64,000 nucleotides of DNA from Variovorax sp. CAN15. GTDB lineage: Bacteria; Pseudomonadota; Gammaproteobacteria; Burkholderiales; Burkholderiaceae_C. Below are positions 43,686 to 62,620 of the stretch, piece by piece. The stretch spans positions 1-64,000 of the forward strand of contig NZ_JASMRZ010000009.1 in the NCBI RefSeq assembly GCF_030462475.1, read 5' to 3'. The position numbers were made by a program, and so were the translations under genes. How positions within the stretch are numbered: position 1 is the first letter of the stretch; every line of letters starts with the position of its first letter. The notes under the pieces were generated by a model. The model was not told the origin of the DNA. It made no database searches and saw nothing but the letters and a program-made list of their open reading frames with translations.

Positions 43686-44750
43686 ATGGGACTGTCTTTG
43701 GTGCAAAGCCGCGCCTTGCTGGGTCTTGAAGCGGCCAGTGTCACGGTAGAGGTGCATCTGGCGAACGGCCTGCCCAGCTTCACGCTGGTCGGCCTCGTCG
43801 AAACGGAGGTCAAGGAGGCCCGCGAGCGCGTGCGCTCCGCGCTCCAGAACGCGGGGCTGGAATTCCCCAATAACAAGCGCATCACGGTCAACCTCGCGCC
43901 GGCCGACCTGCCGAAAGACTCCGGGCGCTTCGACCTGCCCATCGCGCTGGGCATCCTCGCCGCCAGCGGCCAGATAGACAACGCCAGGCTCGCCGGCCAT
44001 GAGTTCGCCGGCGAACTCTCGCTGTCGGGCGAGCTGCGGCCCGTTCGCGGTGCGCTGGCCATGGCGCTGGCGCTGCATACGCGCGGCGTCGCGACGCGGC
44101 TGGTGCTGCCCCTGGAAAGTGCGCAGGAGGCCGCACTGGTCCCGGGCGGCGAGGTGTACGGCGCGAAGCATCTGCTGGACGTGGTGCGCCAGTTCGTGTC
44201 CGCCGACGAGGCCGCCGCCCTGCTGCCCGACACCACCGACGACGGCTGGGCGCGCATCCAGGCCACGCCCGATGCGGCCCCGCCCCGGTACGCCGACCTG
44301 TCCGAAGTGAAGGGGCACACGGGCGTCAAGCGCGTGCTCGAGATCGCCGCGGCGGGCGGCCACAGCCTGCTGATGGTGGGCGAGCCGGGCTCGGGCAAGT
44401 CGATGCTCGCGCAACGCTTCGCGGGGCTGCTGCCCTCGATGCACATCGACGAGGCGCTGGAGAGCGCGGCCGTGGCCAGCCTGGGTGGGCGCTTCGCGAC
44501 CGAGGGGTGGCGGGTTCGACCTACCTGTGCGCCTCATCACACTTGCAGTGCCGTGGCGCTGGTTGGCGGAGGCTCTCCGCCCCGCCCCGGAGAAATCTCG
44601 CGTGCCCACCATGGCGTTCTGTTTCTGGATACCGTTGTCATGGGCCCATCGACATGCACCCTAAACATTAACCATCGACGGACACTACCGGGCGAAGTAC
44701 TTAGAGTTCGGCGTTTTCAACTATCGGCTCTCAACAGGGCTATGTGGTGA
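43686..44750 (+). pseudogene. comM: comM (YifB-type Mg-chelatase-like ATPase), interrupted by the genomic island
   Basis: The first about 315 codons encode ComM: the Lon-protease-like N-domain (GLSLVQSRALLGLEAASVTV), Walker A GEPGSGKS, and SPHH-like APHHTCSAVALVGGGSPPRP. After HHGVLFLD (base 44630), where ELPEF should follow, the sequence changes to unrelated codons that end at 44750. Intact ComM is about 500 residues, so the rest of the AAA+ domain is displaced to beyond the window. ComM promotes branch migration in natural transformation and is a known island target. Codons 44511-44630 already look less GC-rich than the rest of the gene. Confidence 0.88.
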
Positions 44751-44860
44751 GGTGGGGATGGTGACTAGCTCAACGTATCGCGCGAAGATGGTTGAAATGC
44801 GGACTTCATCCGATTCCCACTTCGATACTGCATGCTTCGCGCGGTACATCCGCTAGTCAA

Positions 44861-46102
44861 ATGGCGATCGTCAAGCACATCGATTTCACGGTCCACGACG
44901 TGACCTACGAGATGGCCACACCGTCGCTCGTTCCTCTCGGCACCTTGACGGGAGCGCCGGTCATCTACGGTAAAGATGAGGTGATTTGGGAAGAAGCTGC
45001 CGCCTACCTCGCATCAAGGCTTCGACTTGTATGGTCGAGAGAATTGGACATCCGAACGGTGGAAAGCAATGCCAAGCATCTGCGCGCCTACCTCGAATAC
45101 TGTGAATCTCATTCACTTTCTGCAATGGAATTCGGGGCCCGGCGGCAAGACAAGCCGACCTACGGGTTTCGTGGATTCGTCATCGACCAAAAGAGGCGCC
45201 GAGTCATTTCGCCCAGCACCGCATCCGCGCGCATGAATGCGGTCAAACAGTTTTTTTCCTGGACTCTGAAATGCGGGATCTTGCCTGCGTCGGCACAACC
45301 GTACATCGAAACGTCTACTCACACCCAAGTTCAAGACCTGGTCGGGTTTTCCCGGCGGATCGCGATCTCGACTTCGGATCTTTCCATCAGAAAGTCGAGT
45401 CGAGAGCGCGCTTCTCTCGAGGGCGGTCTGACTCCGGTGTCCCGAGCACTGCGAGACGAACTCATTGCCGCCGGATATCGCCATGCGAGCCCAGAGTTCG
45501 CGCTGATACTAGATCTGGGCTTCAGATCTGGAATGCGCATCGAAACCATCTGCGGACTCACCGTGGAGAGTCTCGCCAAGGCAACGTCGAATGAGAGCGG
45601 TGAAACCTACTACATCAAGGTGGGGCCGGCACACGGCGTGCCTACCAAGCAAGGCGTCAACTACGGCCCGCAAATTCCGAGAGATCTCTTCGTTCGGTTG
45701 AAGCAATATGAAGATTGCGCTCGACGATTGAAACGAACAGCAGGAGCCGTTGGAGAAAGCAAGCATCTGCTTTTTCTCAATCGATGGAGCCGTCCTTATG
45801 TGGACCTCAACCGCCACGGAGCAAATTCGATCAGTCAGCTTTTGCAGCGCTTAAAGGCCCATCTTCCACACGCTGATCTTCGGCAGTTTTATTTTCACTG
45901 CACGCGAGCGACTTTTGGGACGGCGGTAGTCCTCGCGGGCTTAGCGGCCGGAGAAAGAAAAGACCGGATTGTCCGACGCCTTATGGAACTGCTCGGACAC
46001 CGGCACGCGAGTTCGTCATTCAGGTACATCTCCTTTGTGGAGGAATTGAAGACAAGCGAAGCGATTGACCGGGAACTGGAAGCATGGTCGACCACATCCT
46101 GA
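44861..46102 (+). CDS. ginA: Tyrosine recombinase 1 of the GInt module (GinA-like)
   Basis: A 413-aa integrase. The core-binding domain covers about 40-160. The catalytic residues are complete: Arg226 (FRSGMRIETI), His346 and Arg349 (FHCTRATFG), His380 (LLGHRHASS) and Tyr389 (FRYISF). It starts at the ATG at 44861, about 230 bases from the comM junction. The next gene begins 19 bases before its stop, so the set is translated as a unit. It should cut and rejoin the attachment site with its two partners. Confidence 0.85.
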   Translation: MAIVKHIDFTVHDVTYEMATPSLVPLGTLTGAPVIYGKDEVIWEEAAAYLASRLRLVWSRELDIRTVESNAKHLRAYLEYCESHSLSAMEFGARRQDKPTYGFRGFVIDQKRRRVISPSTASARMNAVKQFFSWTLKCGILPASAQPYIETSTHTQVQDLVGFSRRIAISTSDLSIRKSSRERASLEGGLTPVSRALRDELIAAGYRHASPEFALILDLGFRSGMRIETICGLTVESLAKATSNESGETYYIKVGPAHGVPTKQGVNYGPQIPRDLFVRLKQYEDCARRLKRTAGAVGESKHLLFLNRWSRPYVDLNRHGANSISQLLQRLKAHLPHADLRQFYFHCTRATFGTAVVLAGLAAGERKDRIVRRLMELLGHRHASSSFRYISFVEELKTSEAIDRELEAWSTTS

Positions 46103-47790
46103 ATCTCGAAGCGTCAAGGCCGGCGCTGTTGATCGAAGTCGCCTATCCCGGCACCAGTTGTACCCAATACGACCTGCGTGCATTGTTCTGGCGCAATGGG
46201 CACGCGTTAGGGCCCAGGTGGAGCCGATCAGGAGCACACCGAAGCGCATCTGGCTCGGTCAGAGAGCAGTCCTATCCGATCCTTGAAGCCATACAGAGGG
46301 GATATCGCACTGCCCAAGCAGAAGGCACATCGTTGCGCACGTTGGGCAACAGTTTGGTGAGCCTGCGAACGTTCTGGGCACACTGTGAGGAGCACCGGCT
46401 TTTTCCGTTGAAAGATTCGCAAGCCGGCTGGTCAGCCTCGCTGTCGCATTGGGTCGATGCGCTCTGGCAGAAGGTCAGATGCGGAAAGCTCGCCGAACGC
46501 TCAGCAGGTGCTGCATCATGGGGTGTTGCCGGAGTACTGGCCCGAGCGCTTGAAGTGTCCCCCGCTTCAATCGTAGGCCGCACAGTGATGCCAAGAATCA
46601 ATGCCAGTCGGGGGGCACCGCCAAGGCACGAGAAAATCGACCTTGCGGTGATCGACCAGTTCATCGAGGATCTAGCCGACATTGCTTCAGCCATCACGCG
46701 CGAATCGTTGGAGGGTAATTGGCCTTTGAAGATAGATTTTCGATCGGGCGCTGTGCTGCGCTATCGCGGCTCGGGGCGACCGTCACAAACTTCGAATAGC
46801 TATCTGGCGGATGCGACGACCAAAGCCAAAGCCGTCTCCATCCGCACACAGGCCGAGTGCCTTCGCTTTATCGGGATGACCGGAGCGAATTTGCAAGTAG
46901 CTTTGGATCTTCGAACCGAAGATATCTCTTTCGAAAGCATGAGTGGCAGCTACCGTGTGCGCGGCTTGAAGAACCGCCGTCATGATCAGGTCGATGTTCG
47001 AATTCCGAGAACGTATCGCTCGACCTTCGAGCGATGGCTCTCGTTTCGCGCAGATCTTTATCCGGACAGCTCTGTACTTAGGCTTTTCCCACTCTGGAGC
47101 AAAGAGGGAAAGGAGTCGACCGCCAAAGGCGAGCGCGGCTTCCAGCAACTGCGTGCGCTTCTGAAACTGGCAGGCCGGCCTTGTGTTTCTGCTGCGCTCC
47201 TGAGGTTCGCAAAGAGCCAGCGGTTGCTCAGGCTGGAAGCAATCGACGGAAATCTAAAAACCGTCGCGGGAGAGCTGCAGAACGAACTGGGCACGCTGTA
47301 CAGAAGCTATATGCGTGGCTCCCAACAGATGGCCACAGTGGAACTAGGTTCGTTCATCAAGACCATTGCGCCGAAGGCAAGTCAGCAGCGATTGCGCGAT
47401 GGCGGCTCATGTGCCGATCCCGACCATCCGCAGCTCATCACGATCGCTACAGACAGGGTGCCAGCGCCCGATTGCCGCAATCCGGCGGGATGCCTGTTCT
47501 GCGAGAACTACCGTGGAATCGCTAGCAAGGACTATCTGCACTCGGTGCTCTCTTACAAGGAATTTCTTCGGCTTCGCGCAGGAACTACCCCACTGGAGTC
47601 GCAGGTCTGGACAGCATCCATTCGCCCCACCATGGAGCGCATCGACGCCTTCGTCTGCAAGGTCGCTGAAACCAGTGAGCGGCTTCGCGAACAGATGGAG
47701 GAAGTGCGCGGTTTCATCGACGCGGGCAAGTTTCATGCTCGCTGGGTAGGTTGGATCGAGCTTCTCGCTAACGATCAGGGAATCCGCTGA
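46084..47790 (+). CDS. ginB: Tyrosine recombinase-like protein 2 of the GInt module (GinB-like, degenerate active site)
   Basis: A 568-aa protein between two clear integrases. The region expected to read TGxR is MTGANLQVALDL, so the first catalytic arginine is missing. The His-x-x-Arg box is also not recognisable, although a YRSYMRG segment could hold the tyrosine. A cysteine cluster near the end (DCRNPAGCLFCENYRGI) looks metal-binding. It overlaps both neighbours (19 bases upstream, one base TGATG downstream). It is probably a structural or DNA-binding partner. Confidence 0.75.
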   Translation: MVDHILNLEASRPALLIEVAYPGTSCTQYDLRALFWRNGHALGPRWSRSGAHRSASGSVREQSYPILEAIQRGYRTAQAEGTSLRTLGNSLVSLRTFWAHCEEHRLFPLKDSQAGWSASLSHWVDALWQKVRCGKLAERSAGAASWGVAGVLARALEVSPASIVGRTVMPRINASRGAPPRHEKIDLAVIDQFIEDLADIASAITRESLEGNWPLKIDFRSGAVLRYRGSGRPSQTSNSYLADATTKAKAVSIRTQAECLRFIGMTGANLQVALDLRTEDISFESMSGSYRVRGLKNRRHDQVDVRIPRTYRSTFERWLSFRADLYPDSSVLRLFPLWSKEGKESTAKGERGFQQLRALLKLAGRPCVSAALLRFAKSQRLLRLEAIDGNLKTVAGELQNELGTLYRSYMRGSQQMATVELGSFIKTIAPKASQQRLRDGGSCADPDHPQLITIATDRVPAPDCRNPAGCLFCENYRGIASKDYLHSVLSYKEFLRLRAGTTPLESQVWTASIRPTMERIDAFVCKVAETSERLREQMEEVRGFIDAGKFHARWVGWIELLANDQGIR

Positions 47791-49775
47791 TGTCATATAC
47801 CCTGGGCCTTGATCATCAAGGTGCACTCGATGTCCGAGCGCTCAATCATCGAACTCAGACACTCCAGCCGCCGGAGGATTTTCCGATATCCGTGACGTCT
47901 GAGGGTCGGGTACTGTCCCGATATCAAGACGACGTCTGGGACCTGACCCCCTATGCGACCACGGCCACGCGCATGAGATTTCTGCCTCTTGTCGATGGAG
48001 CCAGCGCAGCGGTGTCAATCCGCAACGTGGGTCTTCAGAAGCGAGTCGCCTTCTGGTCTTTGTACGGCATGGGTGTGCGCTGCTCGGTCAACTCGGTGCT
48101 GGGCCTTTTCCACGTCTTCCGGAAAATCATCGCGCTTTGCACAAGAAACGGCGTGCTTGCTTCCGAGCTTTTTCGCTACCCTGCCGTATATGAGCAACTA
48201 GCCACCTGCATCCCCATCTCGCAGAAGCAGGTCTTCCGTCGCCTGATGTCGCGGCTCTCGCGGGATGCCGACCTGCTCGACTTTCGAGTTCTTCATGAGG
48301 CCCAGTCAGAAGAGATCGCCAGGCAAATGGGACCCTATCGCCAGGTGCAGACCGCGTTCATTCCTGAGCGAATCTATTTCTACATCATCAACCGGTGCAC
48401 CGAAGTAGTAGAGATGTATTTGCAGCACCAAGAGCCGATCGCGGAACTCTACAAAGAGTGTGTCAAGGCTGCCATTGATTTCCCTTCGCGCAGAAACAAG
48501 CGCACCGGGCCTTGGCGCGGGCGCCGCGCAAGCAGCACCTCGCGCAACACTGCTCTGGAATGCGTCACGGGGAGAAGCTTCCTCGAGCATGCGATGAAGT
48601 TAGGCATTAAGGACGTCCTCGAAAAGACACTTTCTCGCAACCTTCATAAGACCACGGGCGTCAGGACAATAGGTACCTATCTGAAATCTGTATCACTGGC
48701 TTGCCGGCTGCTCCTCGCTGCCCTCAGTGGTATGCGAAGAACCGAACACGGCACACTTCACACGGACTGTTTAGAGCGCCGCACGGACGCATTGCTCGGC
48801 GAGGTGCTTCTCGTGAGGGGTGAAACAACCAAGACTCTCCGAGACAAGAGCACCTATTGGATTACCTCCGCGCCAGCAGACCGTGCCATCGAGGCGGCCA
48901 AGTCGGTCTCCTCGTTGCGCAGATACGGGTTACGCAAAGATCCCCGACGAAGCCCTCCAGCCAAAGGGCCGACGCTACTGTTTCCCTGGTGCACGGACCC
49001 ATGGACGCGGCTGCTCGGCGAAGATACGAGGTCCGTGAATGCTGCTGCAGTCTCGTCGAGCACCTTGTCGAGGGACATGCTGAACATGCTCGACACCGAA
49101 CAGCTTCGAATGACAACGCAGGATGTCGCACAGGCGATGCGACTTACCCCAGACCTTGACACGGCGGTTTTCTACGAAGGTGCCATCTGGCGGCTCTCCT
49201 GGCATCAGTTCCGACGCACGCTCGTTTGCCTCGCGCTCGGCGCGGGAGTCTCGCTGCCCTCGCTCGCCTGGCAGCTCAAGCACTGTGGTGTAGCGATGAC
49301 TCAGCACTACGGCACGAACTACTTCAACGTACCCGCTGACCGGGCGCTGCGTAGGGAGTTCGAGATGGCACAGATCGAATTGCTGCTCGTGCGTGGTCTG
49401 GAACTCACCAAGGACGACTATGTATCGGCTGTGGGCAAGAAACAAGTTGCAGTTCATCTGCTGTCGGAGAACGACGAGCGATCTCTGGTCAAGGCTGCAA
49501 AAGCGGGTGCTCTTGCGTTCAAGCGAACGGCGTTGGGTGTGTGCACGAATCCAGATCCGTGCACATACGGTGGATGGGAAGATGTGTCGCACTGCGCGGA
49601 CTGCACGAAGGCGCTGGTAGATCGCAACAATAAAGTCGCGATCAAGGCTTTTCTTAATGTCGTCGAGGCTGATCTGGAGGCATGCCGCGCCGCCGACGTC
49701 GTTCTTCGTGGCAGTCTCGAAGCTCAACGCGACGCAGCATTGAAAGCCCTGAATGCCATCTCATCACCAGACTGA
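47790..49775 (+). CDS. ginC: Tyrosine recombinase 3 of the GInt module (GinC-like)
   Basis: A 661-aa large integrase. Catalytic segments are SGMRRTEHGTL (Arg), SWHQFRRTLVCL (His-x-x-Arg) and KHCGVAMTQHYGTNYF (His and Tyr). The C-terminus has a cysteine/histidine cluster, GVCTNPDPC then SHCADC. It starts at TGATG from the GinB stop and overlaps the small fourth gene by 23 bases. Confidence 0.85.
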   Translation: MSYTLGLDHQGALDVRALNHRTQTLQPPEDFPISVTSEGRVLSRYQDDVWDLTPYATTATRMRFLPLVDGASAAVSIRNVGLQKRVAFWSLYGMGVRCSVNSVLGLFHVFRKIIALCTRNGVLASELFRYPAVYEQLATCIPISQKQVFRRLMSRLSRDADLLDFRVLHEAQSEEIARQMGPYRQVQTAFIPERIYFYIINRCTEVVEMYLQHQEPIAELYKECVKAAIDFPSRRNKRTGPWRGRRASSTSRNTALECVTGRSFLEHAMKLGIKDVLEKTLSRNLHKTTGVRTIGTYLKSVSLACRLLLAALSGMRRTEHGTLHTDCLERRTDALLGEVLLVRGETTKTLRDKSTYWITSAPADRAIEAAKSVSSLRRYGLRKDPRRSPPAKGPTLLFPWCTDPWTRLLGEDTRSVNAAAVSSSTLSRDMLNMLDTEQLRMTTQDVAQAMRLTPDLDTAVFYEGAIWRLSWHQFRRTLVCLALGAGVSLPSLAWQLKHCGVAMTQHYGTNYFNVPADRALRREFEMAQIELLLVRGLELTKDDYVSAVGKKQVAVHLLSENDERSLVKAAKAGALAFKRTALGVCTNPDPCTYGGWEDVSHCADCTKALVDRNNKVAIKAFLNVVEADLEACRAADVVLRGSLEAQRDAALKALNAISSPD

Positions 49776-50181
49776 AACTGGCCGCGGTGGCGCTGAACGC
49801 GAGTTCGCATCGGCCTTCCTCAGACTCAGGGAGGATCGACCGATCCGACTTCCCAAAGGGACGCCGGTGTCCCAGAACAATGTCGCGAAGGAAGCTGGCT
49901 GCACGGCATCGGCACTGCGAAAAGAGCGATTCCCTGAGCTGGTGAAACAGATCCAAGATTTTGTTGCTCCGTCAGCCAAGGCGCCCAACGATCTCCGAGA
50001 ACGGCTAGCCCACGCCGAGCAGCGGAACAAACTCCTTCTGCAGGAAAGGGCGGCACTGCGCGACCGGTATGACCTCCAAACAAGCCGTGTGCTCAGCCTG
50101 CTTGCCGAGACAGCGGAGTTGAAGCGACAAATCAAGATCCTGGAATCCGAGCTGCGGGGAAATATCAGGCCCTTACGGTAG
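49753..50181 (+). CDS. ginD: Small HTH/coiled-coil protein of the GInt module (GinD-like, Tn554 TnpC-like)
   Basis: A 142-aa protein. Residues about 34-68 form an HTH with VSQNNVAKEAGCTASALRK. Residues about 80-135 form a heptad-rich coiled coil (ERLAHAEQRNKLLLQERAAL). A gene of this type following three recombinases is the diagnostic fourth gene of GInts and resembles TnpC of Tn554, which influences orientation and efficiency of integration. Confidence 0.8.
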   Translation: MPSHHQTETGRGGAEREFASAFLRLREDRPIRLPKGTPVSQNNVAKEAGCTASALRKERFPELVKQIQDFVAPSAKAPNDLRERLAHAEQRNKLLLQERAALRDRYDLQTSRVLSLLAETAELKRQIKILESELRGNIRPLR

Positions 50182-50189
50182 CGCATTTG

Positions 50190-50400
50190 CCCCATCAGAC
50201 CCGACCAAGATGAGCGGGGTTGTCGGCAGATCTTCTGCGGCTTTCGCAGGACCTCTTCGTCGAGGTCGTGCGAATCCATTCATGGTGACCAGCGAAACAG
50301 GCGCCGCCGATGGGACGACTCTCTTGGGAGGGGGCGGTAATCCCCGAGGACTGAAGGCAGCAGAGAGTGACAAGATGTTTGCCTGCTGAACTGTTAAAAA
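50190..50400 (+). ncRNA. Structured leader, candidate AvcI-type RNA antitoxin
   Basis: The 234 bases between ginD and the deaminase gene hold no convincing gene but several strong hairpins: CTGCG/CGCAG (50235-50249), directly followed by GACCTC/GAGGTC (50250-50267), then a long arm ACTCTCT/AGAGAGT (50318-50324 with 50362-50368) enclosing GGGG/CCCC (50331-50345). AvcD deaminases are held inactive by an sRNA, AvcI, encoded just upstream on the same strand, and this is the right place and size. Homology to known AvcI cannot be judged here. Confidence 0.45.
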
Positions 50401-50415
50401 ATCTGGAGGAAGGAT

Positions 50416-52041
50416 ATGTCCGCAATTGCAAAGCCCCTGGTTAAAAGGCGAACTCTGCTGACCGACGATCGCCAACTAATTGAGAAATTCGCAGCTCGAA
50501 AATCTCACGAACTGGTGATAGCCTTTGCTGGACCGATTGGCTGCGGAATCCAATCTGTTGTCGAAATGAGCACCATTCGCCTCAAGGAGCGTGGCTACGA
50601 GGTGGTACATGTGAAGTTGAGCGAATTCTTGGAAGAAGCAATCAAGAGCGGCTTTGTGGAGGAATGGGAGCCTCCGGCTGGCTCCTCCAATCGCCTTTTA
50701 CGGTATCGTCGATTGCAAGAGGCCGGAAAGGAGCTTCGCAGCCAAACCCAAAATCCAGCAATTCTTGCTGAGTATGCAATACGTCAGATATCTATTGATC
50801 GTCGCAAGAGATTTGCCAGTGATGGTGGATCGCTCGAATCAACTGCACCCATTGTCCCCAAAAGGGTCGCCTACTTGATTGACCAGGTAAAGCGCCCGGA
50901 AGAAGTTGCCCTTCTCCGAGTCGTCTATGGAAATTTATTTTACCTCGCTGGCGTTACGCGAATCAAAGACAGACGGGTTGAAGAACTTGTGCGCGAAAAA
51001 GTCCGAGCAAATGAGGTGGAAGGACTCATCGAGATTGACAAGAATGAAGGAGAAAAAAATGGACAACAACTCGACAAAACGCTTCAGCTCGCCGATTACT
51101 TCATAAGAAATGATGCTAAAACGATCGATGACAAGAGGCGAAAAGTCGATCGCTTTTTGGATTTGATTCACGGCGACAAAAGTGTCACCCCCAGCAAAGC
51201 TGAACATGGAATGTATGCCGCCTATGCTGCTGGGCTGCGTTCGGCTTGTTTGTCTCGGCAAGTTGGTGCCGCCATCGCAGCAAGCGGCGGTGAAGTGATT
51301 TCAACTGGGTGCAACGATGTCCCGAAGGCAGGAGGAGGCCTCTACACCTCAGACTCTCAGCCGGTAGACATGCGATGTGTTCATCAGGACGGTCAAGTGT
51401 GCTTCAACGATTTTCACAAGAAAAAGCTTCTGACCGAACTAGGCGACGAGATTGAAAAAGAGTTGAAAAATCTCAAGCGAGGCGAGACCTCGATCACGCT
51501 AGCTCCCGGCGAGCGGGCGCAACTGCTTGACGCAATTTACGAAAACACTCGTGTGAAAGATTTGATTGAATTTTCTCGCTCTGTTCACGCCGAGATGGAT
51601 GCAATCGTAGCTCTGGTCCGAACAGGTGGAGGTGGCCTTGAAGGCGCGACGCTCTATACAACTACATTCCCCTGCCACAACTGCGCTCGACACATTGTTG
51701 CTGCAGGAATAACCAAGGTCTTCTACATTGAGCCTTACGAAAAAAGTTTAGCCAAAGATTTGCACCAAGACGCCATTGCGTTTGAAGTCGAGGAGTCAAC
51801 AGTGCAGACACCCAGAAGGGTAGAGTTTCTTCATTTTGAAGGTGTTGCACCGAGGCAGTTCGGGAACATGTTTCGAGCTGTCAATCGAAAAGATTCATCC
51901 GGCAAATTTATACCAATTGAGACCAGGACGGCAGAAAAATTTCTGCCAGAATATATTGACAGCTATCAAGATTTTGAAGCCAAGGCTGTTCAGCATTTAG
52001 AAAATGAAATAACCAGACTTTCAAAATTGAAAACGGCTTGA
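50416..52041 (+). CDS. avcD: Anti-phage dCTP/dCMP deaminase with N-terminal P-loop domain (AvcD/DCD type)
   Basis: A 541-aa two-domain protein. The N-terminal adenylate-kinase-like domain has a degenerate P-loop GPIGCGIQS (residues 39-47, no GKS) and LIDQVKRPEEVALLR. The C-terminal zinc deaminase domain has His391-Ala-Glu393 (HAEMDA) and Cys420/Cys423 (PCHNC). Such proteins deaminate dCTP/dCMP on phage infection and starve replication. A strong ribosome site (GGAGGAAGG) precedes the ATG. Codon use is much AT-richer than all neighbours, a sign of separate acquisition. An ordinary dCMP deaminase is unlikely at this length. Confidence 0.88.
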   Translation: MSAIAKPLVKRRTLLTDDRQLIEKFAARKSHELVIAFAGPIGCGIQSVVEMSTIRLKERGYEVVHVKLSEFLEEAIKSGFVEEWEPPAGSSNRLLRYRRLQEAGKELRSQTQNPAILAEYAIRQISIDRRKRFASDGGSLESTAPIVPKRVAYLIDQVKRPEEVALLRVVYGNLFYLAGVTRIKDRRVEELVREKVRANEVEGLIEIDKNEGEKNGQQLDKTLQLADYFIRNDAKTIDDKRRKVDRFLDLIHGDKSVTPSKAEHGMYAAYAAGLRSACLSRQVGAAIAASGGEVISTGCNDVPKAGGGLYTSDSQPVDMRCVHQDGQVCFNDFHKKKLLTELGDEIEKELKNLKRGETSITLAPGERAQLLDAIYENTRVKDLIEFSRSVHAEMDAIVALVRTGGGGLEGATLYTTTFPCHNCARHIVAAGITKVFYIEPYEKSLAKDLHQDAIAFEVEESTVQTPRRVEFLHFEGVAPRQFGNMFRAVNRKDSSGKFIPIETRTAEKFLPEYIDSYQDFEAKAVQHLENEITRLSKLKTA

Positions 52042-52060
52042 CAAAAAATAAAAAATGCGC

Positions 52061-52089
52061 TTGACAAGTTCGAGCAATTTAGAGAAACT
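52061..52089 (+). promoter_or_regulatory. Possible sigma70 promoter downstream of the deaminase gene
   Basis: TTGACA at 52061-52066 is a perfect -35 box, and 17 bases later GAAACT is a weak -10. A second TTGACA overlaps the deaminase stop at 52038. It would drive the 72-aa gene separately from the deaminase. Confidence 0.35.
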
Positions 52090-52119
52090 ACGCTTGTTGA
52101 TAACTTAATGGAGGCTGTG

Positions 52120-52338
52120 ATGCGTAAACCAAGCAGCGAAACTCCAGGTCAGTTGTTGCTCGCACTGGAGCAATCGGCCCCGCCGGTGCCACGTGCTGTG
52201 GAAGTGCAATCGAACGTGGTTGTCCACGTGCACTTCGGCTCGAAGCTGTCACAACGTATTGCAGAGCGTGCGACCAGCGTCGAAGAGTCGAAGATCATCG
52301 AGAGTGTGCTGGCTCAGGCGAGAAAGCTTAGCTGGTAG
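52120..52338 (+). CDS. Small hypothetical protein downstream of AvcD
   Basis: A 72-aa protein starting MRKPSSETPGQLLLALEQSA with GGAGG five bases before the ATG. It has a beta-like VVVHVHFGSKL and a helical tail (SVEESKIIESVLAQARKL). No family recognised. It is the only gene following the deaminase on the same strand; whether it belongs to that defence unit is open. Confidence 0.55.
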   Translation: MRKPSSETPGQLLLALEQSAPPVPRAVEVQSNVVVHVHFGSKLSQRIAERATSVEESKIIESVLAQARKLSW

Positions 52339-52588
52339 CTAGCTGGCGCATGCGCGCCGGCCTTGCTGCTTCCCAACCGTCGAGAGCCGCTCTGCTCAGT
52401 CCCGACGGGTACTGGGCCTCTTCACGCGTTGCGCTCTTGGATGTGCTCCAACCTGCACTACGTTGAAGACATCCACACCAAAGTGCCCAATCGACCAGAA
52501 CCTGAGTGCTATGTCGGGCGTTGAGGTGCATGGTGGTTTGCCCACTTTGACTTCCCCATGAATTGGCTCGCTCAAAAAGGACTCTCAT
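52328..52588 (-). CDS. Possible 86-aa protein coupled to the XRE regulator
   Basis: Its ATG overlaps the stop codon of the XRE gene (ATGA), the arrangement of a coupled second gene. The sequence has MHLNARHSTQVLVDWALWCG and a C-terminal RAALDGWEAARPARMRQL. It overlaps the 72-aa gene on the other strand by 11 bases. No family recognised, and it could be spurious. Confidence 0.35.
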   Translation of the reverse strand: MRVLFERANSWGSQSGQTTMHLNARHSTQVLVDWALWCGCLQRSAGWSTSKSATREEAQYPSGLSRAALDGWEAARPARMRQLATS

Positions 52589-52830
52589 ATGCCGGCTTGA
52601 GCGGCCAGCTCCTCCAACGAAATACCGATACCAGACGCGATCCGAATCACAACCATGATTCCAGGGTTCTGAGTTCCTCGTTCAATACTGCTCATGTAGG
52701 AACGATCGACGTGGCTCCGATGCGCTAACTCTTCCTGCGAGAGCCCGCGCGCTTGCCGAGTTGCCCTGATCGCCAGTCCCAACGCCACAAGCGCTGGGTC
52801 CAGCGCATGTTTGGGCGAAGGAATTGGCAT
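52585..52830 (-). CDS. XRE-family (Cro/CI-type) HTH regulator
   Basis: An 81-aa single-domain repressor-like protein: ALGLAIRATRQARGLSQEEL, then HRSHVDRSYMSSIERGTQNP (recognition helix) and ISLEELAAQAGI. It is divergent from the 156-aa orphan gene across 65 bases, so it probably controls that gene and itself. An ATG 17 codons upstream is possible but would intrude on the divergent promoter. Confidence 0.82.
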   Translation of the reverse strand: MPIPSPKHALDPALVALGLAIRATRQARGLSQEELAHRSHVDRSYMSSIERGTQNPGIMVVIRIASGIGISLEELAAQAGI

Positions 52831-52895
52831 GGACAAAATCGTCCGCCAATGCGTACGATTACACCACGGATGATCTTCCACATAGGGGGTTTGGC

Positions 52896-53366
52896 ATGTT
52901 CCGAGTTGATAGTCGCTTCGAAATCTACATGCCGCCCTTTCTGGAAAGTGAGAGCGCGGAACTTCGACAATTCCATCTTGTTGAGCAGTGCTTCAACGTG
53001 CCGCTCTGGCATGTTCAGGTTCTCCCTCTAGCTGCCAAAGACGAATTTCAACGATGGAGTTGCTATCTGGTGGTACGTGCGGGTGATGCGCTCGGCATAC
53101 TGGTAGGACAGCAATGGGAACGCGTGAAGCTTCATGTCGTGTTGCCGGAGTACATGACGCGAACGAACTCCATCAAGATGTCCAGGTGCACCGCACTTTG
53201 GGAGTGCAGCTTAGGTGAGGAGCAGCAAGTCGCATGGCAGTTCGACACTGCACTCGGTTCTTTTCTCGATCCAGAATTTGGCGAGTTTGATACCTCAAGA
53301 GTGAAGAGGCGTGAAATCAGGTGGCGTGACCCTGAAATCGCGAATGAACCCGGGGGAGCTCATTGA
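52896..53366 (+). CDS. Hypothetical protein divergent from an XRE regulator
   Basis: A 156-aa protein starting at 52896, where AGGGGG lies six bases upstream; an in-frame ATG at 52824 would overlap the regulator gene. It has MFRVDSRFEIYMPPFLESES and many Trp/Tyr/Arg residues, no transmembrane segment and no recognised motif. The divergent pairing with a small Cro-like protein resembles regulated toxin or immunity loci, but no toxin fold is evident. Confidence 0.6.
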   Translation: MFRVDSRFEIYMPPFLESESAELRQFHLVEQCFNVPLWHVQVLPLAAKDEFQRWSCYLVVRAGDALGILVGQQWERVKLHVVLPEYMTRTNSIKMSRCTALWECSLGEEQQVAWQFDTALGSFLDPEFGEFDTSRVKRREIRWRDPEIANEPGGAH

Positions 53367-53591
53367 TCACATCTGAAAAGCAGTCGGCTTCAACTTGCCA
53401 CATCGTCCTCGGCCGCAAAGCTCTGGCGATTCGTTATGGCTTCGAAGGTCAGTCAAGACTGATCGCGGTGCACTTGACTTTCCAACCGTGCGGCAGCAAT
53501 TCGTCGATGCGAATGTGTGGCTGCGTGGGCAGCCGAGCCGGCGAACGCCGCCCGCCGGGCTGACCAGCAAACACCTCGATGACCGTTAGCG

Positions 53592-54377
53592 CTAAGCGCG
53601 CGCTCCGGCACCCTCGTCGTCTTCCATGTCCTTGTCCGTGAACGGACCAAAAAGAACCGAATCGCGGCTTGGGGAGTATCGACCGCCGTCCGCCTGAAAC
53701 TTTTTCACTTCTTCAAGGGTGAAGTCCTTCGTGCGAACCAGATGCTGAGCAATCTGTTCATCGATCGGAACGCTGTCAATCTGGAAGATGACCTGTTCCA
53801 TCTTCCGCTCGATAGTGAAGGTTTCTTCCAAGCGCTCGCGCAAGGCCTCGACTGGGTATCCAGCGATCAGCCGGGTGCCGATATCTGGGAGTTCGGTGAA
53901 CACCTCGAAAAAGGGCCCCCGCAACTCGAACTCGCCATCCCACTGCATCTCGACCTCACGACCGTCATCCCGGATGCGGTAGGGCATGGCCTTTCTGTGC
54001 CAGCAAAGGCACATGACCAGTTCATCATTGGGTTCAAGAAGCCATGCATCACCATCCGTTGTCGTGAACAACACAAGGCGCGCGTTCTGAAAAAGGTCGC
54101 TCGGCGCGACCCACATCTTTGCCTCACCCGCCTGCGCAAGCCGCACTGCGTCAGCACAAGCGTGGAGCAAGACTTCGGTTGGGTCGATGCCTGGCTTTCC
54201 ACCTGGCGCTTCCGTCATCTCTTGGCAGGTTATTACGTGATGCCAGTGGTTGTATCCGTTCCGCCGTGCGATCCGGTCGAGAAGGTCGGTGTGCTTGCCA
54301 CCGCCGGTGCGTTGGAGCTTTTTGGCGGCTTTTTTCATGGTGTCCACCTGGGAGGCAGACGTGGGAATGAAACGCAT
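53592..54377 (-). CDS. Hypothetical protein with N-terminal glyoxalase-related helical domain
   Basis: A 261-aa protein. The first 50 residues carry a mobile-element-typical motif, MKKAAKKLQRTGGGKHTDLL then IARRNGYNHWHHV, similar to the short domain NCBI calls glyoxalase-superfamily. The remainder is unrecognised. The start at 54377 is preferred (TGGA upstream); longer forms add a low-quality leader. Confidence 0.6.
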   Translation of the reverse strand: MRFIPTSASQVDTMKKAAKKLQRTGGGKHTDLLDRIARRNGYNHWHHVITCQEMTEAPGGKPGIDPTEVLLHACADAVRLAQAGEAKMWVAPSDLFQNARLVLFTTTDGDAWLLEPNDELVMCLCWHRKAMPYRIRDDGREVEMQWDGEFELRGPFFEVFTELPDIGTRLIAGYPVEALRERLEETFTIERKMEQVIFQIDSVPIDEQIAQHLVRTKDFTLEEVKKFQADGGRYSPSRDSVLFGPFTDKDMEDDEGAGARA

Positions 54378-54595
54378 GAGAAATTCCATTTCTGCATGCG
54401 AGCGCAAGGTGCTCACTGCCAAGGCCCGCTTGCAAAAAGGGAACCAGGGAAGAGGATGGGTGCGACCGTCCCGCAAGGGTTTGCCAAGATGAGCAGCAGG
54501 CGCCGGAAGTCGCCTGCCGCAAGCATACAGCGCATGCAGAACGTTGAGCAAGAGCACGTCGCAGGCTTGCGACGCATCGGCGCCCAGCCCGCGCG

Positions 54596-55036
54596 CTACA
54601 GGCTCTCGAGCCTTTCCGCGACCTCGCCTGCGCCGAGCTCACGCACCGAAGCAAGGCTCTCCAGTTGCGCCGCACGCGGGCGTGCCTTGCCTTGCTCCCA
54701 GTGATAGATCGTCTGCCCGGAGACGCCGACGAGTTTTCCGTACGTCGCGGCTGACAGACCGAGTTTGGCGCGGTGTGCGGCAAGCCGATTAACGCTGAAT
54801 CGGCGCTTGACGCCGGCGTCTACTGCCGTATCTGCTTCTGGCGCAACCGAGCGGCCTGCGGAGCCCTTGACGGCTCTGCGCAAGGCCTTCTCCAAAGCAT
54901 CCACTTGGCGACGCAAGGCTGCGATGGATGCACGGTGCGCAACAGAAGACTTTCTGAGCACTTCGATTTCAGCGCGAACTTCTTTCCGAGCAACGCGTGA
55001 AATTTCAGCTTTGAGGATCGATGCAATATTTGGCAT
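54596..55036 (-). CDS. Coiled-coil HTH transcriptional regulator
   Basis: A 146-aa protein. It begins MPNIASILKAEISRVARKEV, forms a coiled coil to about residue 65 and ends in an XRE-like HTH (LGLSAATYGKLVGVSGQTIY, then HWEQGKARPR). Proteins of this build are common in Burkholderiales genomes. It lies between the orphan gene and the two-component system, on the same strand as both. Confidence 0.75.
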   Translation of the reverse strand: MPNIASILKAEISRVARKEVRAEIEVLRKSSVAHRASIAALRRQVDALEKALRRAVKGSAGRSVAPEADTAVDAGVKRRFSVNRLAAHRAKLGLSAATYGKLVGVSGQTIYHWEQGKARPRAAQLESLASVRELGAGEVAERLESL

Positions 55037-55200
55037 GGCGCAGATTGTGCCCGTCGTCATCCCCATCATCGCGGGCTCTCGGCGTCCTTGAGTTACTTGA
55101 AGTCCTCCTTGGATTGCCAAAGCGAGAGCAGAGTATCCGGGGGGCCTTCAGAAGGCCCTCCGCTCCCATCATTTCATCAAGTAACCCGCTTCGGAGCGCA

Positions 55201-57351
55201 TCAAGCAGCTGCAATGGCTTTTGGAAAACGGATGACCATGGCAACGCCGTCCGTTCGGTTTTCAGCATGAATGCTCGCCTTCATTGCAAGCAGCTGCCAC
55301 TTGGCTACAAACAGTCCTTGGCCCTGATTCGTACTGCTAGCGCGAGACGAGACGCCGAACGAAAAAATCGACTCCAGTCGGTCTTCTTCAATGAGCGGCC
55401 CCTGATTGAACACGTCGATTTGCACATAGTTGTCCACCAGGCCCAGCCGTACTTGAACCAAGGTTCCCGCATATCGAAAAGCGAGCGCATTGTTGAACAG
55501 ATGATCAAGGACGGTCTCCAGCGCAATGTCGTCGACTTCGGCAAAGACACCTTGCGCGACTCCGAAGTACACGTAGTCAGTTCGGGCTTCGTTCAGGTTA
55601 CTCAGGAATTCGTTCAAAAACTTTGCGAGGTCGACCGGCCGCGTCTGCGCCATTCCACTGAGCAGACCCGTCTCGACCGATGTTGCGTTGTACAACCCTT
55701 CGACGGCTCGGCGCATCCGTTCGAGCCTAGACCTCATCTCCGGGTTGTCTTTTGTTTGAGTCAACAACGAATGCAGAGGGGATCGAATTTCGTGTCCAAG
55801 CGCGTCCAGGATGGCTTTGCGCTGCTTCAAGAGTTCTCGCTCAAGCGCGACCTGCATTTGTTGAAGCTGAATGTGGCGATCGCGCGCCGCGCTGCGGGTC
55901 ACATTGCGTCGAACCAGTACATCCAACACTCGGCTCAGGGCAGCCATCTCCCCATGACCGTGCCGCGGAGGCGCCGACCAACCATGCGGTGCTCGATTGA
56001 CGATCAAACCATATGTCACTGCGGTCACCTTCCGCAGCCTCAGCAACGCAAAAAAGCCTAACGCCAGCAAGACCGCCGAAAGGATTAGTGCGACGAAAAA
56101 CCACAGCATCGTGCGCAGCGCGAAGTCGGGCAGCGGCGGTGGACCAGAAGTCAACACGACTTCGTACGTGTTCCTCGACCCCACCAGCTCGATAGGACGT
56201 GAGGCCCGAACGATCTTGGTTTGTCGATCGATCATTCGCGTCAACCAGGCCGCCTGACCCTCTCGATCTCTTGGCGGGGAGGCGCTTCCGTCGACCTGCG
56301 GCAGGTTCGACAGTTGGTCGGAACTCCACCTCAAGACGGATCCTGCGGCCGGGTCATCTCTGATCTCCAACTTTGCTCGCGACGGCACTGACAGCAAGTA
56401 CGCTTGTTCGATGGACATAAGTGCTGTGCCTTGTCGCTCTGGCTCGATGTCGTACCGCTTGATAGACTTGCCTGCCGCCTCGTCCCATTGGTACACGTCA
56501 ACGCCAATGCCCAAGCTTTTGACCCAGGCACTCGGCCACGATGCGGCATCTACGGCTTGACCGTCAATTAGCGCAGCATCGATACGACCGACCAGCGTGA
56601 CGGAATTGCGTCCGTTAGCATCCGATGGGCGCTCGAAAGCTTGCGCATTGATCTGCTTGAGCGAACGATCTACGCGGTTTGCATAGAAGGCGGAGATCTC
56701 GTGCGTACCGTCGTACCGGCTGATGAATGACGGATACCTTTCCAGCGCGAGTTTGGGCGTTTCGTAGGTCAACACGAACGCAGTCTGTCTGGGCCCCGAG
56801 AATTTCAAGGTGACGTAATCAGCCTCGGCGATCGGCGTGCCGCTCACGTGCCTACGGATGGACGGTGTCGGAAATCTGATTGCAAAGTAAAGGTAGCGCC
56901 CGCTCGTATCGCCTGGAACCACCGCAAAGCACGCTTCCAAAACAGGAGCCCCTGGCCCTGCGGTGGCCACATTGCGGAAGGTCACCACGCAAGGGCGTGG
57001 CCAGTCAAAAATGACTTTCTCCACATCGAACTGCTTCGCATTACCCCGATTGAGGAAGTACGAATAAAACGAGCGCTTGAGCGACACAAAGCCCAGCGTG
57101 CGCTGAATTCGCGAAAACTCATCTGGGTTTTCCAACAGCGACGAACCATCCTTATCGCGGGTGGCCAGCGCAAAATCGGCCAGTTGGGCGTCCAGCGCCG
57201 CCTTCTTGGCTTGTTGGTCGGACTCTCTAGAAGAGGACACGACGTCATAGATCGCGTAACCGATGACACCAATCAAAGCGACGGCGCCGACGGCTGCCGC
57301 GATCGTGAAAGCGCTGCGCGACGCCCAGCGTTTGAACTGCCTAACTACCAT
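55201..57351 (-). CDS. Membrane sensor histidine kinase with large extracytoplasmic domain
   Basis: A protein of about 716 aa. Helix 1 spans about 13-35. An extracytoplasmic region of about 380 residues with no recognised family follows, then helix 2 near 425 (TMLWFFVALILSAVLLALGF). The dimerisation box is ALGHEIRSPLHSLL (phospho-His), and the ATPase domain has HLFNNALAF, VFNQGPLIEED and NQGQGLFVAK. The start at 57351 overlaps the response-regulator gene by 11 bases. It presumably phosphorylates that regulator; the signal is unknown. Confidence 0.85.
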   Translation of the reverse strand: MVVRQFKRWASRSAFTIAAAVGAVALIGVIGYAIYDVVSSSRESDQQAKKAALDAQLADFALATRDKDGSSLLENPDEFSRIQRTLGFVSLKRSFYSYFLNRGNAKQFDVEKVIFDWPRPCVVTFRNVATAGPGAPVLEACFAVVPGDTSGRYLYFAIRFPTPSIRRHVSGTPIAEADYVTLKFSGPRQTAFVLTYETPKLALERYPSFISRYDGTHEISAFYANRVDRSLKQINAQAFERPSDANGRNSVTLVGRIDAALIDGQAVDAASWPSAWVKSLGIGVDVYQWDEAAGKSIKRYDIEPERQGTALMSIEQAYLLSVPSRAKLEIRDDPAAGSVLRWSSDQLSNLPQVDGSASPPRDREGQAAWLTRMIDRQTKIVRASRPIELVGSRNTYEVVLTSGPPPLPDFALRTMLWFFVALILSAVLLALGFFALLRLRKVTAVTYGLIVNRAPHGWSAPPRHGHGEMAALSRVLDVLVRRNVTRSAARDRHIQLQQMQVALERELLKQRKAILDALGHEIRSPLHSLLTQTKDNPEMRSRLERMRRAVEGLYNATSVETGLLSGMAQTRPVDLAKFLNEFLSNLNEARTDYVYFGVAQGVFAEVDDIALETVLDHLFNNALAFRYAGTLVQVRLGLVDNYVQIDVFNQGPLIEEDRLESIFSFGVSSRASSTNQGQGLFVAKWQLLAMKASIHAENRTDGVAMVIRFPKAIAAA

Positions 57352-58042
57352 GGCTCCAGAAGTAGCCCTTGCCCGGCGCGGTTTCGATGTGATTGAAGCT
57401 CGGATCAACGTCACTGAACTTGCGACGTATCTGCGACATGTGGACCGCCAGAGATTTGTTGTCCCCTGTTTTCATTGCCTGCGCCAGATCGGAGTGAGGC
57501 ACAACGCTGCCAGCTCGACCGGCCAGTTGATTGACGATCTTTAATTCCGTGAGGGTCAAACTGACCCGCTTGTCTTTCCACCGCAGCTGGGGCGAGCGGT
57601 TCGGATCTGGCGTCAACCCCGGGGGCAACCCACCCGGCGCACGGGCCAAGGCCGCAAGGTTATTGCTTGCGAAACTCAAGGCTTGGGACACGCGATGCTG
57701 GAACTTCAGTTCATCGACGGGCTTTGGGATGAAATCGTAGGCTCTCAATGTGAACGCAACTGGCCCTAGGTTCTCCTCTGGCATGCCGGTGACGATGATG
57801 GTCGGGCAATCCCGCCCATGATCGGCAAGGATAGAAAGGCCTTTGTGGTGTTCTTGCGCTTGGCTGCCCAGCTCGATATCGACGACGAGAAGGTCGAAGC
57901 GCTCAGCCTTGATCGCTGCCACCGCGCTGTCGTAGTTGAACAATTGGATCACCTCCACCGCTGTGTTGGGGACGGTCTCAAGCAATTTCCTAAGGTCGTT
58001 GCTGGTGGGCAAGTCGTCCTCAACGAGTGCGATGCGATGCAT
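57341..58042 (-). CDS. OmpR-type response regulator
   Basis: A 233-aa two-domain protein. The receiver has Asp9/Asp10, phospho-acceptor Asp55 (LLVVDIELG), Thr85 (IIVTGMP) and Lys107 (IPKPVD). The DNA-binding winged helix includes VSLTLTELKIVNQLAGRAG and IETAPGKGYFW. It is divergent from the CBASS operon: 258 bases separate its start from the first small gene. That makes CBASS expression the closest candidate target. Confidence 0.9.
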   Translation of the reverse strand: MHRIALVEDDLPTSNDLRKLLETVPNTAVEVIQLFNYDSAVAAIKAERFDLLVVDIELGSQAQEHHKGLSILADHGRDCPTIIVTGMPEENLGPVAFTLRAYDFIPKPVDELKFQHRVSQALSFASNNLAALARAPGGLPPGLTPDPNRSPQLRWKDKRVSLTLTELKIVNQLAGRAGSVVPHSDLAQAMKTGDNKSLAVHMSQIRRKFSDVDPSFNHIETAPGKGYFWSHGS

Positions 58043-58300
58043 ATCTGGGTCTCCACAACTGGGACTGCGAGCTTCTCACAGGAAGCGGCACGTAAACACT
58101 CGGGCAAATTCAGCTTCTCTTGCCCTTATTAAGAAATGCTTGCCTGCGGTGCGCGAACGCTGTCAGCGCTACTCGTGAAGTTGAAGCTCGTCTTAACCCC
58201 TTTTTGCCTGCTAAAGATCACACTGAGGGCAACCCGCAAGGCTCTGGAAAAATCCGAGTCGCACGGCGGGGATCTTCAACCGCAACCAGGAGCGCCTCAA

Positions 58301-58465
58301 ATGGCAAAAACCCTCAAGCCCGGTACGCCGGCACCCACGTCCGGTCAGTACCGCAACGGCACGACTAAAACCGAGATCACGGGCGTCAAAGGCAAGCCTC
58401 TCCCTCCGACGCCGCGTCCCAGCCAGGGCTACACGCTCGTGGATCCGACCAAGCACAAACGCTGA
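58301..58465 (+). CDS. 54-aa YjzC-like small protein leading the CBASS operon
   Basis: A short, glycine/proline/threonine-rich protein: MAKTLKPGTPAPTSGQYRNG, later GKPLPPTPRPSQGY and a basic KHKR end. AGGAG lies nine bases before the ATG. The opening pattern resembles YjzC-type proteins of unknown function. It is separated from the CD-NTase gene by a hairpin. It could be a regulator, inhibitor or phage-sensing factor, or merely a passenger. Confidence 0.65.
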   Translation: MAKTLKPGTPAPTSGQYRNGTTKTEITGVKGKPLPPTPRPSQGYTLVDPTKHKR

Positions 58466-58475
58466 AAGAGGCAAA

Positions 58476-58495
58476 CCGCACAGGTCACTGTGCGG
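58476..58495 (+). other. Hairpin between the small gene and the CD-NTase gene
   Basis: CCGCACAG and CTGTGCGG pair perfectly around GTCA. No T-run follows (an A-run does), so on the plus strand it is more likely an attenuator, an RNA-processing site or a translational control element than a full terminator. Confidence 0.6.
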
Positions 58496-58537
58496 CTCCT
58501 TCAAAAAAACAGAAAACAACATCAGGAGTCAAGCACC

Positions 58538-59851: not shown

Positions 59852-60339
59852 TGCCTGCACCAACACGTCCTCCGACCCTGGCGCAACGCCATGCCGAACT
59901 CGCAGCCTTGCGCCTGGACGGCGCCAAGCTGCGTTTCGTGGGAAACGCAGAGCTGCGCTTCACCTTCACGATTGCTCCAAGCGAGTTCGGTCGATTCTAT
60001 GAATGCGAATTGCGCATCCCGCGCGATGCATCCTCGCCTGAAATGCGGGTTCTGCAGCCGGACTTGGTCGCGCTGGCCAAGGGCCAGTCGTTGCCGCACG
60101 TGTATTCGAGCGAGCCGAACGCCGTTAAGTTGTGCCTTTGGCGGCCCAAGCAGCGCGAGTGGATGTCGCAAATGACGCTGAAAGACACCTACATCCCTTG
60201 GACCGCCGAGTGGCTTGCCTATTTTGAGCTTTGGCTAGCGACCGGCACATGGGAGGGTGGTGGCGAGCACCCAACATCACCCAAAAAGACCGCGGCCGCT
60301 GCGCGAACTTTGGCTAAGAAAAAATTCCGGAAAGCTTAA
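59851..60339 (+). CDS. CBASS E2-like ubiquitin-conjugating enzyme (short type II, Cap2-E2 only)
   Basis: A 162-aa stand-alone E2 domain. The family core is visible: AVKLCLWRPKQREW with candidate catalytic Cys95, then YIPWTAEWLAYFELWLATG (113-131) and GTWEGGGEHP. No E1 or JAB domain is present, which places the operon in the short type II (E2-CBASS) group. In that group an E2 forms a thioester with the CD-NTase C-terminus and primes it. Confidence 0.87.
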   Translation: MPAPTRPPTLAQRHAELAALRLDGAKLRFVGNAELRFTFTIAPSEFGRFYECELRIPRDASSPEMRVLQPDLVALAKGQSLPHVYSSEPNAVKLCLWRPKQREWMSQMTLKDTYIPWTAEWLAYFELWLATGTWEGGGEHPTSPKKTAAAARTLAKKKFRKA

Positions 60340-60342
60340 AGA

Positions 60343-62200: not shown

Positions 62201-62248
62201 GGTCAGATTTTGCAGTGGGTCGTTGCGAAAAGGGTGTTGCGTCTGACA

Positions 62249-62551
62249 ATGATTGCAAAGGCCCCACTTGTTAGCTACCGTATGTGCCCCGGCACCTTCC
62301 AGTGTCCGGTGGCATCAAGGAGATCCCTCTTCACCATTCAGAAACCATTGCCACCACCCAAGGGCTACGAGAGTTGGCTCCACTACGCAGTCGAGAACTT
62401 TGATACCCGCCAGCCATGGCTCGAAAGCATGTACGAGACATGGGTGGATGAAACCGCAGTCGAACTCGACCGCGACAAGATTCGCGAGTCCCTGCGTATG
62501 GAGTTCATGGCCCTGAAAAAAGCCATGAAAGCCATGGGATCGAACTCATAA
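62249..62551 (+). CDS. Small hypothetical protein
   Basis: About 100 aa. The C-terminal two thirds (YESWLHYAVENFDTRQPWLE, then DKIRESLRMEFMALKKAM) look like a genuine acidic, helical protein. The start is uncertain: the ATG at 62249 is used, but AAGGAG at 62309 could serve a later non-standard start. No family recognised. Confidence 0.5.
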   Translation: MIAKAPLVSYRMCPGTFQCPVASRRSLFTIQKPLPPPKGYESWLHYAVENFDTRQPWLESMYETWVDETAVELDRDKIRESLRMEFMALKKAMKAMGSNS

Positions 62552-62620
62552 CCTCTTCCCCACCCACGAACACTTTCGTGCGGGTTGGCATGGGTTGATT
62601 GTCGCGCGTCAGCGAGTCGC

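Follow-up and report, generated by a model that had tools for sequence, protein, structure and literature searches.

What has split the comM gene of Variovorax sp. CAN15, and by what kind of machinery did it enter? The window analyzed here covers positions 1 to 64,000 of contig NZ_JASMRZ010000009.1 (C183; 134,557 bp) in a 6.92-Mb assembly of 193 contigs, and coordinates are window positions unless C183 is named. Within this window, the 5' part of comM runs into three overlapping genes of the tyrosine recombinase type and a small fourth gene, which an initial annotation read as a GInt-type integration module in a broken comM. The four-gene order, the homologues of its members and the clean restoration of comM bear this out. 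In all likelihood, the element is an apparently complete, integrated island of the GInt family.

The missing 3' part of comM lies to the right, where the initial annotation had expected it. It resumes at C183:64035, on the same contig and 35 bases beyond the window end, and includes a match to PF13335 at C183:64333-64611. The inserted DNA begins one base earlier than first annotated (44630, not 44631) and has a GC content of 0.564 vs 0.699 and 0.682 in the flanks. The break point (LFLD|E) disrupts the ATPase motif of comM, since it lies among the Walker B codons. Excising C183:44630-64034 in silico yields a 514-codon comM with zero internal stops. The restored protein aligns without gaps to relatives L022, L023 and L024 at 94-95% identity over 506-512 residues, and spliced ComM matches residues 1-513 in genomes G417, G415 and G446. 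The site is unoccupied in three near relatives, and the comM halves of the window are undecayed. The 19,405-bp island is a clean insertion in comM.

Both circumstances that would have spoken against such an insertion were looked for. An intact second comM was rejected when a ChlI-domain search of the genome found none, giving just two further weak matches, which we take from their sequences to be Lon and RadA. Loss of the 3' half of comM was rejected on its presence downstream on the same contig. A tRNA-Pro call at 53161-53260 was also rejected as an attachment site because it lies inside a cargo open reading frame and not at a junction; it is probably a false call.

The open reading frame coordinates confirm the annotated overlaps of 19, 1 and 23 bases between the four module genes (Table 1). 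Gene 1 encodes 413 amino acids (436 if read from TTG), gene 2 encodes 568 and gene 3 encodes 661. Homologues suggest that the ATG is the true start of gene 1; it lies 231 bp from the left end of the island at the break in comM, and cargo comes after ginD. Catalytic residues, assigned throughout by motif reading, had been noted in genes 1 and 3, and they are conserved in the alignments. GinA residues R249, K286, H369, R372 and Y412 are invariant in 22 sequences and H403 is kept in at least 90%. In GinC, both R316/K348/H472/R475/H498/Y507 and the cysteines C585, C591, C602 and C605 are invariant in 26 sequences. All 28 aligned GinB sequences carry Asn269 at the position of the presumed first catalytic Arg, which has apparently been replaced, and Tyr409 is retained. 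Gene 2 has no Pfam match, GinD has none above cut-off, and a PDB sequence search with GinA, GinB and GinC gave marginal matches only. Tyrosine recombinase structure is nevertheless indicated by PF00589 matches below cut-off for GinA and GinC and by an AlphaFold2 model for GinB (mean pLDDT 74, pTM 0.47). In Foldseek, this model matches XerA, XerH and Cre, with an E of 7.5e-5 at best, a probability of 1.0 and TM-scores of 0.24-0.35 on the query.

Table 1. Features of the window and of the inserted island
Feature	Position	Strand	Evidence
comM 5' part, up to Walker B codons GVLFLD	43686..44629	+	TIGR00368 1.1e-99
attL 6-nt exchange region TCTGGA, comM side	44624..44629	+	sequence
Inserted island, 19,405 bp in total	44630..64000 in window, true end C183:64034		GC and comM restoration
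ginA-like tyrosine recombinase	44861..46102 (readable from TTG 44792)	+	PF00589 E 3.1e-5, below cut-off
ginB-like protein, putative tyrosine recombinase fold	46084..47790	+	alignment of 28; AlphaFold2 model and Foldseek
ginC-like large tyrosine recombinase, C-terminal cysteine cluster	47790..49775	+	PF00589 E 0.0034, below cut-off
ginD-like small protein	49753..50181	+	45-47% identity to fourth gene of two plasmid modules
Anti-phage dCTP deaminase	50416..52041	+	NF041025 3.5e-138; PADLOC dCTPase 3.4e-167
Small XRE-type HTH regulator	52585..52881	-	PF01381 8.8e-15
HTH regulator	54596..55120	-	PF13560 1.4e-9
Sensor-kinase-like protein	55201..57414	-	PF02518 1.7e-8
Response regulator	57341..58042	-	PF00072 and PF00486, 1.4e-10 each
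CBASS oligonucleotide cyclase	58490..59851	+	PADLOC Cyclase 3.8e-174; SMODS PF18144
CBASS E2-like protein	59851..60339	+	PADLOC E2 3.2e-49
CBASS 4TM effector	60343..61107	+	PADLOC 4TM Effector 7.5e-96
HNH-nuclease-like protein	62621..63589	-	PADLOC HNH 9.6e-7; PF13391 below cut-off

GInts, which have also been called Tn6571-family transposons (in part of PMC10121019), are described in passages of Bardaji 2017 (PMC5385486) as cargo-bearing islands with a four-gene operon at one end and site-specific insertion. A circular form and dependence on all four genes also belong to the definition of a GInt. The window element is alike in these respects and in gene order and kinds: three integrase-type genes and a small gene in the order ginABCD delimit its 5' end, followed by cargo. 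The targets named in those passages are an ABC-transporter gene, ssb and a ribonucleotide-reductase gene, whereas the window element sits in the middle of comM. It further differs in that gene 2 rather than gene 3 looks degenerate, in its very weak direct repeats and in its deep lineage. The whole word comM is absent from the main texts, supplements excluded, of PMC10214605, PMC5385486 and PMC8649781.

A GinA profile search of a named genome collection returned 53 loci, the closest with 35% identity in GinA. All four genes are consecutive and in A-B-C-D order in 45 of the 53. RulB-like stretches occur in 21 loci, nearly always just upstream of ginA (L090 has one stretch 1.3 kb from it); the rulB islands are presumably Tn6571. 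Only L120, from Herbaspirillum frisingense GSF30, adjoins comM. A family search with GinA found 15 of 399 genomes, including that of the window, with a best other identity of 34%, and none of 15 other family GinA loci has comM in its flanks (approximately 1.5 kb). GinD is 30-39% identical to 26 relatives beyond the two plasmid modules of Table 1. The ssb target of the literature is not seen among the 53 loci, since E. coli SSB has no match to them at 1e-4. The same four-gene set is also found on plasmids: it adjoins RulB in Stutzerimonas and is close to tmexCD1 in Klebsiella. On the Klebsiella plasmid pKP15ZE495-1 (L075), the module lies approximately 4 kb from the tmexCD1 efflux genes.

In a GinC tree of 45 rows (19 labelled rulB, 3 comM and 23 unlabelled), the window has a long branch of 2.08 and a best identity of 31%. 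Together with G474a and L124, it stands apart from the other 42 rows with support of 95/94, and the tree program warns that the window and G474a may show long-branch attraction. The rulB clade has L120 as its neighbour (88/95, not starred). Judged on its sequence and gene order, the window module is best described as a GInt of a deep lineage, and the tree suggests separate lineages for the two comM GInts. The comM label requires one change in 100% of bootstrap trees, a count over the 22 labelled rows; it takes in none of the 23 unlabelled rows, some of which lie between the window and L120. A single ancestral choice of comM by both GInts is compatible with this result.

The island ends suggest how insertion may have taken place. 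The attL site reads TGTT-TCTGGA-TACC and attR reads GGTA-CATCGA-CGAG, with the partner hexamer CATCGA located beyond the window at C183:64029-64034. Strand exchange over this 6-nt region would have kept the hexamer of the host at attL and placed that of the element at attR, and the circular form would carry an attI site GGTA-CATCGA-TACC. Staggered cuts of 6 nt were inferred by Bardaji and co-workers from cloned junctions, as passages of PMC5385486 report. The predicted circle junction of the window, GACGCAGGTA-CATCGA-TACCGTTGTC, has inverted arms that match at 7/10 positions round the 6-nt spacer. That of L120, CTAACCTGTG-GCTTGT-CACAGGTTAG, matches at 10/10 inverted positions round a 6-nt spacer, and none of 5000 shuffles is as good. 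Inverted arms elsewhere, given without shuffle comparison, score 9/10 in G702 (7-nt spacer), 7/10 in G439 and 6/10 in G474a. GInts are described as having a short AT-rich 3' end; GC content here is 0.564 over the island, 0.507 in the last 201 bp and 0.475 in the last 100 bp. GinA and GinC would make the cuts and GinB and GinD may assist or choose the site, so that the element appears to work like a site-specific tyrosine recombinase island that exchanges 6 nt at a conserved motif. A target in a conserved ATPase motif might let it find comM in many hosts.

Several observations weigh against this reading. Neither excision nor a circle nor transfer has been observed. Its inverted arms are weak, with 213 of 5000 shuffles equalling 7/10. 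The far junction that the initial annotation had proposed was located, but the direct repeat expected there is barely visible: positions in register amount to 4/10 and 5/16, compared to the imperfect repeats of 10-17 nt described for GInts. The exchange rule is not uniform. Host hexamers lie at the operon end (attL) in the window and, in reverse, at the operon-distal end in L120; because of this difference, no single strand rule is claimed. Gene 2 seems degenerate and gene 3 apparently complete, contrary to published GInt descriptions in which GinC is the gene without catalytic residues, in particular the first catalytic arginine (in parts of PMC5385486 and PMC10214605). Since rulB-type relatives in the same alignments share this pattern, apparent degeneracy of gene 2 characterizes the entire group in these alignments. 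The GinB fold depends on a model whose confidence is moderate and whose TM-scores are low. Finally, assignment to the GInts uses published descriptions and homologues, not alignment to a reference GInt such as that of DSM 4166.

The island might be an immobile remnant of an old integration that is now a fixed defence island. No close relative of the module was found (GinA identity peaks at 35% among the 53 loci and at 34% in the 399 family genomes), and there is no evidence of a circle. A fixed remnant is nonetheless somewhat unlikely, as all four genes are open with intact overlaps, the ends are clean, the comM halves have not decayed and the site is empty in three near relatives.

It is improbable that the element is instead a strand-biased circularizing element (SE), with the gene plan intA-tfp-intB-srap. 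Passages of PMC10214605 on SE-6283 and SE-6945 describe the same succession of catalytic, degenerate, large catalytic and small proteins, together with a 6-nt exchange and inverted terminal motifs. The window shares the inverted arms round a 6-nt spacer and obeys the SE rule of a host hexamer at attL and an element hexamer at attR, but its relative L120 violates that rule. SE elements are described as having Tfp and Srap sequence clusters distinct from GinC and GinD, and the window proteins are closer to rulB-type modules than to SE-like sets. For GinD, identity is 45-47% to two plasmid modules of the rulB type vs 25% to an SE-like set in genome G474, and GinC is 30-32% identical to rulB-type modules vs 20% to that set. 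This comparison was made via SE-like relatives named from gene plan and annotation; their sequence identity to the window is low, and the G474 set is a separate comM insertion. RIT elements, described in the same source as three recombinases of 315-410 amino acids between 34-bp terminal inverted repeats, were rejected on the sizes of the window proteins (413 (436), 568 and 661 amino acids) and on the fourth gene.

A Tsy transposon, with a tyrosine recombinase (YRec), an HTH protein and TnsF, would have found comM via a TnsF homologue, and the window would then hold no new targeting solution. Passages of Faure 2023 (PMC10293859) place Tsy and ZooTsy in the same gene at the same motif, with an attachment site that overlaps 10 conserved bp of Walker B, and gene 3 of the window is indeed a large tyrosine recombinase. 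However, the Tsy gene set and order described there are YRec-HTH-TnsF(-GIY-YIG), and in the window the small gene comes last. A Pfam scan of island proteins (6 + 9) shows no GIY-YIG gene. TnsF carries its zinc fingers at the N-terminus, whereas in GinB and GinC the conserved cysteines are located at the C-terminus. A plasmid search with Tn6022 ends, aimed at TnsF, gave two examined records without Tn7 genes, and two TnsF candidates were later taken from comM islands, named by position and CxxC count only. Their profiles, compared with those of GinA, GinB and GinC, give probabilities of at most 1.2 and no detectable relation. A Tsy origin is thus hard to sustain.

The initial annotation had also set the window apart from the Tn7-like AbaR islands. 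As the same source describes, Tn6022 and AbaR share the location in comM but use the Tn7-type proteins TnsA, TnsB, TnsC and TniQ, and Tn6022 picks comM via TnsF, an inactive tyrosine recombinase. The same Pfam scan (6 + 9 island proteins) finds none of these four. The claim that an unrelated machinery converged on comM stands in substance and is extended by the genus survey below, but targeting of comM by a tyrosine recombinase is not new, as Tsy demonstrates. Convergence holds at the sequence level only, because it draws on the lack of detectable relation to the two TnsF candidates; GinA, GinB, GinC and TnsF may still share the tyrosine recombinase fold.

An assembly artefact fusing unrelated contigs is hardly credible even in an assembly of 193 contigs, as a single contig of 134,557 bp contains the two comM halves, which restore an exact reading frame, and L120 independently shows the same kind of insertion.

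The GInt of the window is not the only insert in comM of its genus. Spliced ComM was searched against 101 genomes of the genus, with RadA and Lon as controls (limit 1e-20 for ComM and RadA and a stricter 1e-60 for Lon). ComM was found in 93 genomes, and of the other eight, three are 99-100% complete. Counting that of the window, ComM is in pieces in 19 of the 93 and has a same-contig gap of at least 5 kb in 11. The pieces lie on different contigs in seven genomes, where insertion is likely but not proven, and eight further genomes show small lesions or overlaps. RadA was found in 100 of 101 genomes and was never split; two copies are truncated at contig ends in genomes that are 58% and 73% complete. 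Lon was found in 97 of 101 with zero same-contig splits, three truncated copies and, in G494, pieces at two contig starts. Same-contig splits thus number 11/93 for ComM vs 0/100 for RadA (p 2.4e-4), a value to be taken as a guide only since the genomes share ancestry and just two control genes were used. Taking Lon as 0/97 makes the comparison with Lon too favourable, given G494, but the RadA comparison is independent of this. The comM gene is a genus-wide insertion hotspot. In G477, the remaining genome of the 19, the comM halves are 3.3 Mb apart (C1:3541426 and C1:216294) on opposite strands of one contig, which suggests a large inversion through comM inserts.

The 11 genomes hold 12 same-contig inserts because G474 carries two: one GInt (the window), one SE-like, two permuted three-recombinase, four holding Tn7-like genes and four others (G456, G425, G421 and G454). 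The SE-like four-gene set of G474 (L038:1425-6564) forms a 5.5-kb insert without cargo, and the same comM has a second, 40-kb insert. Its second gene consists of two open reading frames in different frames and is apparently broken. Profile probabilities for this set are 97.7 to GinA, 92.4 to GinD and 46 to GinC, with none of note to GinB. Permuted sets in G439 (L054:12052-17996) and G481 (L052:6879-12883) encode three tyrosine recombinase-like proteins and a small coiled-coil protein in the order B-C-D-A. In these, P4 relates to GinA (92) and P2 to GinC (77); the other two proteins have no detectable relation and were assigned by position and size. Tn7-like genes occur in the inserts of G466, G399 and G451 and in the second insert of G474, and in the last three they are interior, not at the island edge. 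Target duplications of 5 bp, read by eye, flank those of G466, G399 and G451.

The inserts interrupt several conserved codons. Junctions are in Walker B for the window, Walker A for G454, K|D-S-G for G466, E-Q-V|S for G399 and G451, and G-R-F|D for G474 and for L120. The permuted sets of G439 and G481 share the codons K-I|T-V, in opposite orientation relative to comM. L120, the second comM GInt, leaves 28.9 kb between comM pieces on one contig (G877:C58:13121-42062) and is likewise inserted in opposite orientation.

Across the order of the window, ComM was matched in 351 of 399 genomes, at least 40 with two or more matches, a lower bound with three candidates scored per genome. By reading of the matches, these 40 comprise 14 large same-contig gaps, 13 cases on different contigs, 6 intact genes with additional fragments and 7 small lesions. 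Large inserts are commonest at residue ~297, about 18 codons upstream of the window site. Those fetched encode TnsB and TniQ relatives in 7/7 cases and a TnsA relative in 6/7, and the position is presumably the Tn6022 site.

Individual genomes add other arrangements. G709 has a large serine recombinase (PF07508, PF00239; L138:1086-2654) within comM at residues ~169-216. In G702, of another family, a 91-kb island interrupts comM at LDE in Walker B, within a few bases of the site in the window. At its left end is a minus-strand set of 792-708-192-517 amino acids (positions 1347-7864 of L131, G702:C8:113200-133000), which GInt profiles do not match; the final protein of this set is a relative of P4 from G439 and G481. 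G735 and G859 carry an intact comM and separate partial C-terminal copies (residues ~357-511, 50-54% identity), as if elements bring their own comM 3' end.

The cargo of the window island includes an anti-phage dCTP deaminase and CBASS genes (Table 1), and G399 and G451 likewise have a relative of the deaminase within their comM islands. Inactivation of comM affects 22% of Acinetobacter baumannii strains, partly through CBASS-bearing loci, and Acinetobacter comM inserts often bear defence or resistance genes, according to passages of PMC11472951.

Diverse elements in comM have been described before (Croucher 2016, PMC4774983; PMC11472951), and both Tn6022 and Tsy are known to target its Walker B motif (Faure 2023, PMC10293859). 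The surprise is smaller than first thought. What is new is the GInt at the Walker B site, the second GInt in comM of H. frisingense and the genus-wide hotspot. It is possible, though tentative, that comM is a general docking gene in this order, on which many integration machineries have converged at many sites encoding conserved ComM motifs. With the same reservation, these might comprise GInts (two long-separated branches at two codons), an SE-like element, a serine recombinase, permuted B-C-D-A sets and, at various positions, Tn7-like elements.

ComM helps transformation erase islands, and its disruption may lower removal of the island by this route. That comM loss benefits the elements is a hypothesis of the literature (parts of PMC4774983 and PMC11472951), which the distribution fits but does not prove or test. 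If true, the repeated choice of comM by islands that often bear defence genes would be strong comparative support for selection to disable chromosomal curing. GInts join the machineries known in comM, at the motif that Tsy uses, and the deduced core site of inverted arms and a 6-nt spacer offers a specific prediction of how GInts recombine. Within one genus, 19 fragmented comM genes, a variety of machineries and close relatives with comM intact together provide a comparative system, in which a benefit from disabling comM can be tested by element loss in comM-intact vs comM-split sisters.

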